Both the position numbers and the translations under genes were made by a program. Below are positions 52,101-55,779 of a stretch of DNA of 64,000 bases, piece after piece. Under the pieces are notes generated by a model. The model was not told where the DNA came from, did not search any database, and was given only the letters and a program-made list of their open reading frames with translations. The stretch is from Bifidobacterium breve (lineage in GTDB: Bacteria > Actinomycetota > Acidimicrobiia > Acidimicrobiales > Microtrichaceae). Location: contig CAMDLX010000002.1 of the NCBI GenBank assembly GCA_945901935.1, forward strand, positions 1 through 64,000, given 5' to 3'. Every line of letters begins with the position of its first letter. Positions within the stretch are counted from its first letter, which is position 1.

Positions 52101-53147
<1,047 letters not shown>

Positions 53148-53210: not shown

Positions 53211-53741
53211 CTAGCTTCGTTCTAATTTGGGTAACGCAACACGGCCAGTTCTCTGCAAATCAATGATTCCGAAGGGCCGCAAAAGTTCCTCGAGATCATC
53301 AAGTCTCTCGGGGTGCTCATCAAGCGAAAGCGCTAGTTCGTCTCGCCCAACATCGATGATTCGACCCTCGAACAGTTCGACGAGTTCAATGATCTGACCC
53401 CGCACCTCAGCCGGAGCCTTGACCGTGACCAGCATGAGTTCGCGCTCCACCGAGTCACGCGGGTCGAGCTCAGAAATTTTGATCACGTGGATCAGCTTGT
53501 TCAACTGCTTGACGACCTGCTCCAACGGAGCCTGCTCAACATCAACCACGACTGTGATGCGACTAAATCGCTCATCATCAGTTGGGGCAACAGCTAGGGA
53601 GTAGATGTTGTAGCCGCGACGGGCAAACAGTGCCGACACCCGGGCCAAGACTCCAGCTCGATTCTCGACGAGCACAGACAACACGTGGTACTTCGGCGGC
53701 ACCGAACCTACCCTCCTACTATTCATGGATTGCAGAGTCAT
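53211..53741 (-). CDS. ilvN: Acetolactate synthase small subunit
   Basis: [49 protein letters not shown]. Confidence 0.97.
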
Positions 53742-55489
53742 CGACCGAGTCCGTTCTGCAGGGGGCCAACGTCAATCTGATCATTCGACGTACCTGGTGA
53801 GACCATCGGAAACACCTTCTCCGAAGCATCCGTGCGGAACTCCAGCACAACTGGGCGATCATCAATCTCATTGGCCTTATCGATTGCCGGGCCGACCTCA
53901 TCTGGCGACTCGACACGCAATGCAACACAACCCATGGCCTCGGCCCACTTGACGTAGTCCGGCAAATCCGGGGACAAGTACACCTCGGAGTAGCGCTCCC
54001 CGTAGAACATCTCTTGCCACTGCCGAACCATGCCAAGGTACGCGTTGTTGAGCAGCGCGATCTTGACTGGAATCCGCTCCGTTGCGGCAGTCACGAGTTC
54101 TTGAGCAGTCATTTGGAAACAACCGTCACCATCAACTGCCCAGACGGTGCGATCAGGGCGGCCAACTTTGGCCCCAATTGCCGCAGGGATAGAGAATCCC
54201 ATAGTGCCCAAGCCACCAGAGTTCACCCAGGTGTAGGGGTAGTTGAACTTCCAGTATTGACTCGTCCACATCTGATGCTGGCCCACGCCCGATGCAACGA
54301 TTGTGTCTGCCGGTGACCGATCTCGAAGTTGTTCAAGCACATACTGTGGCTTGAGCAAATCGCCATCTATGGACTGCTCATAGACAAGCGGATACAGCTC
54401 TTGCCAGGCCGAAATTTGTTGGCGCCATGGGGTGATGTCCATGCGACTCTCTGGGCCACCTAGGGCGTTGAGCGCCTTGATGATCTCTTCAATCACGAGT
54501 CGGCAATCGCCGACGATGGGGACATCAGCCCTGCGCACCTTGCCAAGTTCGGCAGGATCAATATCGACGTGGATGATTCTTGCATCTGGAGCGAACCCGT
54601 CGAGCTTGCCTGTCACGCGATCATCGAAGCGACTCCCAAGAGCGATCAAGAGATCTGACTTTTGAATCGAGGTCACTGCTGTGTAATTGCCATGCATTCC
54701 CGGCATACCCAAGCAGAGTTCATGATCATCTGGGAAAGCCCCCCGAGCCATCAGCGTGGTCACTACGGGAATGCCGGTTAATTCGGCGAGTTCTCGCAGA
54801 GCCTCGGCAGCACGCGCCTTCAAGATGCCACCACCCGCATAGATAATCGGCTTGCGGGCAACAGCAATCAGAGCAGCAGCCTCTTTAATCTTTTTCGGGT
54901 GACCCTTGGTGGTTGGCTTATAGCCAGGCATGCTCGAAGAGACATCTGCATCTGTTGGCCAATTCCAGTTCATCGCCGAGGCCGGATTTCTGGGGTCGAC
55001 GATGTCTTTGGGAATGTCCACCAACACGGGGCCTGGTCGACCCGTGGTTGCAATATGAAAGGCCTGACGAATGGCCATCGGAATATCTTCAGCTCGGGTC
55101 ACCAACTCGTTGTGTTTGGTGACGCCGCGAGTAATCCCGACGGTGTCGCATTCTTGGAAGGCGTCGGTACCGATCGAAGGAAGAGGCACCTGACCAGTAA
55201 TGACCACCATGGGAATGGAATCCATATAGGCATCGGCTAGCGGAGTCACGATATTGGTCGCACCGGGACCCGAGGTCACCATGGCAACTCCAGGGCGGCC
55301 AGTGGCATGAGCAAAACCCTCTGCCATATGCCCTGCTCCTTGTTCATGACGAACCAGAACATGTCGGATCGGGCTATCAAGAATTGGGTCGTACACCGGA
55401 AGAATCGCTCCCCCGGGCAGGCCGAAGATGACCTCAACTCCCTCGAGTTCGAGGGACTTAATCAGGGCTTGTCCACCATTGGTGTTCAT
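53738..55489 (-). CDS. ilvB: Acetolactate synthase large subunit
   Basis: [61 protein letters not shown]; ThDP motif [17 protein letters not shown]. Confidence 0.98.
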
Positions 55490-55565
55490 ATCGCTATTCC
55501 TGGCTTGTTGCTAAATGGCACTGGGCTGGTATTGCTCTGAAATTGAAACTGCTCTGAAAATCACA

Positions 55566-55661
55566 ACAACCTCCCGCTAAGGAGGTTGTAGGCACGTACG
55601 CGGATTGGATCTCCGGTCACGTGCCTCAGGAGGGTACGAGAAGAAGATGCGAAGTAGTCAC
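55566..55661 (-). promoter_or_regulatory. Candidate ilvB leader attenuator: leader peptide MTTSHLLLVPS (55661..55626), hairpin 55619-55626/55590-55597, terminator-like hairpin 55581-55589/55566-55574
   Basis: Minus-strand GTGACTACTTCGCATCTTCTTCTCGTACCCTCCTGA, then AGGCACGT...ACGTGCCT, then ACAACCTCC-ttagcg-GGAGGTTGT-TGTGATTTT, upstream of ilvB. Confidence 0.7.
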
Positions 55662-55779
55662 CTTGTTAGTCTGCCGCGAAGCGGGAGCTGTTGCCAACCC
55701 GGCTCCTCCTCAAGGCCCGAATTGGGCAAGTTCACCGCACCTGCGAAACGTCTTCAGAGAATCGCGGTACCGTCAACCC

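Follow-up and report, generated by a model that had tools for sequence, protein, structure and literature searches.

A predicted ribosome-mediated attenuator of ilvBNC in Acidimicrobiia, with copies of its module before leuA, cimA, and leuB

The ilvBNC operon in the window (the whole stretch of 64,000 nucleotides analyzed here) is preceded by a short upstream open reading frame (uORF) with BCAA codons and by two adjoining hairpins, P1 and P2, and we consider it very likely, judging from sequence, that this leader is a ribosome-mediated transcription attenuator of the operon. Attenuation is well supported because the uORF, the position of its BCAA codons, P1, and P2 are all conserved, because the hairpins covary, and because copies of the module stand before other genes with codons that match the pathway. 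A preliminary description of the locus had proposed ribosome-mediated attenuation in its classic layout. Conservation, covariation, and the exchange of codons at leuA, cimA, and leuB uphold the attenuation itself, but the classic trp layout with a shared-arm antiterminator was not found. If the reading is correct, uORF attenuation of ilvB would reach across an entire class of Actinomycetota, most of it uncultured, and the copies would form a natural series of exchanged codons (Val/Leu at ilvB, Leu at leuA, Ile at cimA, and Ile/Val at leuB). Such a series speaks for codon sensing, on which earlier data from Streptomyces are ambiguous.

The ilvBNC leader

The sequence contains what had been described earlier before ilvB, namely, a uORF encoding MTTSHLLLVPS, two adjoining hairpins, and a T-rich stretch. 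The features, with the evidence for each, are as follows.

55692..55697, minus strand: putative -35 element TTGGCA, with an 18-nt spacer to the -10 element (sequence; TTGC/TTGG-type boxes similarly placed in relatives)
55668..55673, minus strand: putative -10 element CAGACT, 6 nt upstream of the uORF start (CAnACT-like hexamer in relatives)
55626..55661, minus strand: uORF for leader peptide MTTSHLLLVPS, GTG start and TGA stop (sequence; counterpart in 78/81 ilvB loci including the window)
55635..55646, minus strand: putative regulatory codons CTT CTT CTC GTA (Leu Leu Leu Val), positions -6 to -3 from the stop (codon counts in relatives)
55590..55626, minus strand: hairpin P1, AGGCACGT...ACGTGCCT, candidate ribosome-gated antitermination hairpin (fold, covariation, arm swap test z = -18)
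55566..55589, minus strand: hairpin P2, ACAACCTCCT-TAGC-GGGAGGTTGT, predicted intrinsic-terminator stem (terminator scan, covariation, swap test z = -15)
55556..55565, minus strand: T-rich tail TGTGATTTTC of the P2 terminator (sequence; relatives have a mean of 6.1 T over the 12 nt 3' of P2)
53738..55489, minus strand: ilvB, acetohydroxyacid synthase large subunit, first gene of ilvBNC (TPP_enzyme_N match above the curated cut-off)
53211..53741, minus strand: ilvN, presumably the acetohydroxyacid synthase small subunit (ORF and its sequence)
52101..53129, minus strand: ilvC, presumably ketol-acid reductoisomerase (ORF and its sequence)

The names ilvN and ilvC are those we take from operon knowledge. 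The uORF (55661-55626, minus strand) has 11 codons before its stop, GTG ACT ACT TCG CAT CTT CTT CTC GTA CCC TCC TGA. Its GTG lies 172 nt upstream of the ilvB ATG (55489), the end of P2 lies 76 nt upstream of that ATG, and 66 nt separate the T-rich tail from ilvB. A scan of both strands for a uORF with BCAA codons, a hairpin at its stop, an adjoining terminator hairpin, and a T-rich tail found the whole arrangement at this one site in the 64-kb window and at none of 90 reverse-strand control regions. Along the minus strand, the genes between 51239 and 60036 of the window run ilvD, ABC ATPase, ABC permease, leader, ilvB, ilvN, ilvC, and a homoserine-kinase-like gene, as named by eye.

The first paired base of P1 is the A of the uORF TGA, and P2 adjoins P1 with no gap. 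The preliminary description had given P1 an 8-bp stem; the hairpin is there, but it is longer, with about 9 to 10 outer pairs and an inner helix. P2 has ten pairs and a four-base loop, followed by a T tract that is interrupted and imperfect. The fold of the 112-nt leader has a z score of -3.1, with equally good folds in 1 of 200 shuffles. A terminator scan found P2 to be the sole terminator-like site in 600 bp; since 0.5 such sites are expected by chance over that length, P2 alone is not significant.

No promoter was reported at the leader by a general sigma-70 scan. A CAnACT-like -10 hexamer ends 6 to 9 nt before the uORF start in 69/78 leaders, and an SD-like motif precedes 2/78 uORFs versus 57/78 ilvB starts. 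The uORF therefore looks leaderless, and the spacing TTGGCA-18-CAGACT-6-GTG would place the transcription start probably on the GTG or no more than about two bases away from it. A start downstream of 55626, which the preliminary description had named as counting against its reading, is not what this predicts; the putative promoter is instead just upstream of the GTG.

Conservation of hairpins and codons

The nearest IlvB proteins (84 to 70% identity) come from MAGs named mainly Acidimicrobiia, Microthrixaceae, or Ilumatobacteraceae, and the host of the window belongs with Acidimicrobiia. Two loci in this set (L061 and L067) are from MAGs titled Bifidobacterium breve (TH-08apr19-172 and MaH-09apr19-201) with acidimicrobial ilvB loci, and these record names look wrong. 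The order uORF-P1-P2 precedes ilvB in 77 of 80 relatives' loci, as it does in the window; the three ilvB loci lacking the module are cut by a contig end (L047), have ilvB right behind ilvD (L030), or lie in another context (L066). A covariance model (R2), which includes the window's own sequence so that the window's score is not independent evidence, matches in 249 of 296 genomes of the class. Of 297 genomes sampled across the phylum, 84 have a match, and 24 of these belong to the class; several of the matches outside the class precede ilvB, in genomes whose IlvB is 54 to 64% identical to that of the window.

Both hairpins are strongly compensated in relatives, where the preliminary description had suggested looking for covariation, and far above controls in which the partner was slid. 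In an alignment of 77 sequences, made with the structure supplied, 13 of the 16 pairs of P1 and P2 show compensatory changes on both sides, and 89% of alignment cells are paired natively versus 35 to 51% with the partner slid. The swap test agrees for both hairpins: native arms of P1 and of P2 pair better than exchanged ones (z scores given above), and a P1 flank overlapping the P1 3' arm gives z -8. The first paired base of P1 falls within the stop codon in 65/78 leaders, and P1 and P2 are 0 to 6 nt apart in 78/78.

The P1 loop varies in length and sequence among relatives. An ACAUAU-like sequence recurs in the P1 loops of ten loci (L011, L025, L026, L056, L060, L063, L067, L070, L079, and L147), and P1 loops outside this subset are C-rich. 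The P2 core CCUCCC...GGGAGG (window 55589-55570) hardly varies at ilvB throughout the phylum, including relatives L121-L129; its conservation exceeds what pairing needs, and it resembles an anti-SD/SD sequence.

Elsewhere, ppGpp riboswitches have been described among ilvB leaders (PMC10272879), and a metabolite- or tRNA-binding RNA (a ppGpp/ilvB riboswitch or a T-box) could in principle take the place of a translated leader here. We regard this as extremely improbable, given that the leader matched none of the Rfam covariance models (4227 families) at E <= 5, that there is no large conserved core and the P1 loop is variable, and that conservation follows the codons. One Rfam match elsewhere was set aside as chance.

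Counted back from the stop, 70 of 78 leaders have a BCAA codon at position -3, 74 at -4, and 72 at -5, whereas position -1 is free. GTA is found at -4 in 62/78 leaders and at -3 in 46/78, and it makes up 57% of Val codons in leaders versus 2.8% in ilvB genes; the choice of so rare a codon fits a sensor. Thus, the Leu/Val codons and the stems, on whose conservation the preliminary description had made its reading depend, are both retained in relatives.

Copies before other BCAA genes

Second matches of the covariance model within a genome are copies preceding other BCAA pathway genes. The window's own genome has a second module before leuA (C81:4374-4462, minus strand, locus L135), with leader MLIFTSVVSSTLLLLN and a P1-P2 linker of zero. 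Copies in relatives stand before leuA with LLLL, before cimA with IIII, and before leuB-like genes with mixtures of I and V; four representatives of the genes behind the copies were named by NCBIfam, from N-terminal pieces that score below the full-length cut-offs. Leaders with Ile runs followed by stop, P1, and P2 precede cimA (citramalate synthase) at L136-L141, L143-L145, L154, L158, L161, L166, L169, L171, and L175-L178. Ile/Val leaders with the same stop-P1-P2 module precede leuB-like genes at L142, L146, L148, L151, L218, L221, L224, L235, and L237, several of them with a single GTA. A table of codons by downstream gene gives a chi-square of 222, a value that common ancestry inflates.

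Searches that began from the gene found the module at 19/30 leuA, 9/30 cimA, and 5/30 leuB loci, all with fitting codons, versus 0/90 among reverse-strand controls. No module was found upstream of ilvD and trpE (0/60) or upstream of leuB in the window's own genome (L245). Given these copies at leuA, cimA, and leuB with matching codons, the leader codons follow the pathway of the downstream gene, as read from sequence. Ile codons at leuB would make sense if LeuB takes part in the citramalate route to isoleucine as well.

One weak model match in a relative (L149) was a false positive, with no BCAA gene and no such leader. Upstream of trpE at L270, L271, and L272 are short ORFs with WW or WWW in a different architecture, a candidate trp attenuator of some class members.

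The codon series bears on whether P2 could be simply a constitutive terminator, or a structure at an mRNA end, before ilvB, with the uORF incidental or merely damping expression. P2 is predicted to be stable at any ribosome position, and substitution of leader codons at ilvB of S. coelicolor had no effect, as reported in PMC1262725; both are as such a reading would have it. It is nonetheless most unlikely, as codon identity tracks the pathway of the downstream gene, the distance from codons to P1 is fixed, GTA is strongly preferred, and P1 is conserved and covarying.

Proposed control of ilvBNC

In the attenuator that we propose, transcription would start at or near the GTG, and the uORF would be translated as a leaderless message. 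With ample charged tRNA-Leu and tRNA-Val, the ribosome would reach the TGA and cover the 5' arm of P1, and with P1 blocked, P2 would terminate transcription about 60 to 70 nt further on. When these charged tRNAs are scarce, the ribosome would stall at CTT CTT CTC GTA, 3 to 6 codons before the stop, and P1 could fold; a folded P1, its last base abutting P2, would make P2 fail, and ilvBNC would be transcribed. The start site, the termination, the polarity, and the role of P1 as antiterminator are what we infer from the sequence. A footprint model is consistent with ribosome position gating the hairpin that adjoins the terminator: a ribosome at the stop leaves the P1 5' arm with a modeled pairing of 0.00, and this value climbs to 0.14, 0.61, and 0.93 when the ribosome is at -2, -3, and -4, respectively; the regulatory codons span -3 to -5.

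Alternative pairings of the kind anticipated by the preliminary description did not emerge from RNA folding, and no conserved alternative helix involving P2 was found. Equilibrium folding retained P2 throughout, whether the ribosome was placed at any of eight positions or left out, and folds of truncated transcripts revealed no classical antiterminator. The swap test over all segment pairs found no pairing of P2 arms with other segments, though an interaction among unvarying bases would escape this test, and pairing of the P1 loop or the codons with the P2 3' arm was no better than shuffled. Sequence alone therefore does not account for antitermination, and this, the interrupted T tract, and the dispensable ilvB leader codons of S. 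coelicolor (PMC1262725) count against the proposed attenuator.

How P1 would defeat P2 is likely, from these sequence comparisons, a matter either of weak and variable competition at the boundary or of steric hindrance by the adjoining helix as P2 closes at the polymerase. The attenuator might have an antiterminator of the conventional kind, one that has a few boundary bases in common with P2 and competes with it for them. A precedent is C. glutamicum ilvBNC, where antiterminator and terminator are proposed to share the three boundary bases GCC (PMC11857589). The close spacing of P1 and P2 in every leader is in keeping with this, as is the window, where P1 can gain two pairs (UG of the stop codon with CA at the foot of P2) ahead of synthesis of the P2 3' arm; some overlap at the boundary is seen in 17/78 leaders. 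Against this stand the 61/78 leaders with no overlap, the swap test described above, and the fact that P2 wins in every full-length fold, and we hold competition through shared bases to be quite possible while stopping short of calling it probable.

We also entertain, tentatively and with some doubt, that P1 is an antiterminator sharing no arm with the terminator, which folds against P2 and blocks its closure at the polymerase. Were this true, the module would be a portable cassette of codon run, stop, P1, and P2, reused before ilvB, leuA, cimA, and leuB with the sensing codons alone exchanged. The question it raises is whether a hairpin without shared bases can act as a terminator's antiterminator.

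Leader translation might instead act mainly via Rho, or via translation of ilvB, rather than through intrinsic termination. In mycobacteria, Rho and uORFs reportedly shape premature termination (D'Halluin 2023, going by its title as cited in PMC13236596), and the imperfect T tract of P2 would suit such a route. On the other hand, P2 and its T-rich tail are conserved beside P1, and 57/78 ilvB genes carry an SD-like site of their own, tens of nucleotides downstream of P2. We judge this alternative very unlikely and retain ribosome-mediated transcription attenuation.

Comparison with known systems

A literature search, mostly without subscription papers, found no paper joining Acidimicrobiia with leader-peptide attenuation, which is weak evidence of absence. 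The combination of leader peptide, attenuation, citramalate synthase, and leuA was found only in one paper, unrelated by its title and abstract. Attenuator versions at cimA and leuB were likewise not found in the literature searched, and this, too, is weak evidence, as subscription papers were mostly outside the search. The mycobacterial leaderless polycysteine uORFs that Canestrari 2020 reportedly described (as cited in PMC13236596) resemble the leader here, which looks leaderless too, in being short ORFs that encode a stretch of the sensed amino acid and precede a biosynthetic operon; they differ in being described as translation attenuation and in the amino acid.

At ilvB, uORF attenuators have already been tested in Corynebacterium and M. 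tuberculosis (PMC11857589, PMC10272879, PMC13236596). Seliverstov et al. 2005 predicted actinobacterial ilvB uORF attenuators (PMC1262725), and the leaders given there for Corynebacterium, Mycobacterium, and Streptomyces are similarly short ORFs with Ile/Val/Leu codons followed by terminators. In the accessible portion of that paper, Acidimicrobiia are not among the genera named for ilvB, leuA has a LEU pseudoknot element rather than the stop-P1-P2 module, and no cimA or leuB leaders are given.

The preliminary description drew its parallel with Corynebacterium, which stands as an analogue, but M. tuberculosis ilvB1 is an equally close tested one (PMC13236596). M. tuberculosis ilvB1NC has a short uORF with LVVI, including GUA, and a downstream intrinsic terminator in the same operon type; changing LVVI to AAAA abolishes induction, and the proposal is that the antiterminator is hidden while a ribosome occupies the stop and can form when one stalls at LVVI (PMC13236596). 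It differs in that its leader transcript runs to about +126, in belonging to another class of Actinomycetota, and in that antiterminator and terminator are said there to exclude each other, an exclusivity not found in the window; copies at leuA, cimA, and leuB, as in the Acidimicrobiia module, are not described in the part available (PMC13236596).

The leaders of C. glutamicum ilvBNC and of ilvB-II share with the window a uORF that is leaderless there and looks so here, control codons for Leu and GUA Val, adjoining hairpins, and a terminator before ilvB (PMC11857589, PMC10272879), and GUA at the control site is common to the C. glutamicum and M. tuberculosis leaders (PMC11857589, PMC13236596). 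The ilvB-II uORF spans P1, and a third hairpin, an antiantiterminator, has been proposed there (PMC11857589, PMC10272879), whereas P1 in the window begins at the stop codon. Neither a P1 within the uORF nor pairing between the P1 loop and the P2 3' shoulder was found in Acidimicrobiia leaders, and sharing between P1 and P2 is unconserved among them, in contrast to the GCC of C. glutamicum (PMC11857589). A shared-arm antiterminator, the trait tested for trp-type attenuators, was not found either, and a short interaction among unvarying bases may still operate. The leader differs from known ilvB attenuators in that no conserved alternative helix between P2 and other segments was found. It has the features of their class, a uORF with BCAA codons before ilvB and a predicted intrinsic terminator between the two, and belongs, with codon control predicted from its sequence, among the actinobacterial ilvB uORF attenuators of Mycobacterium and Corynebacterium.
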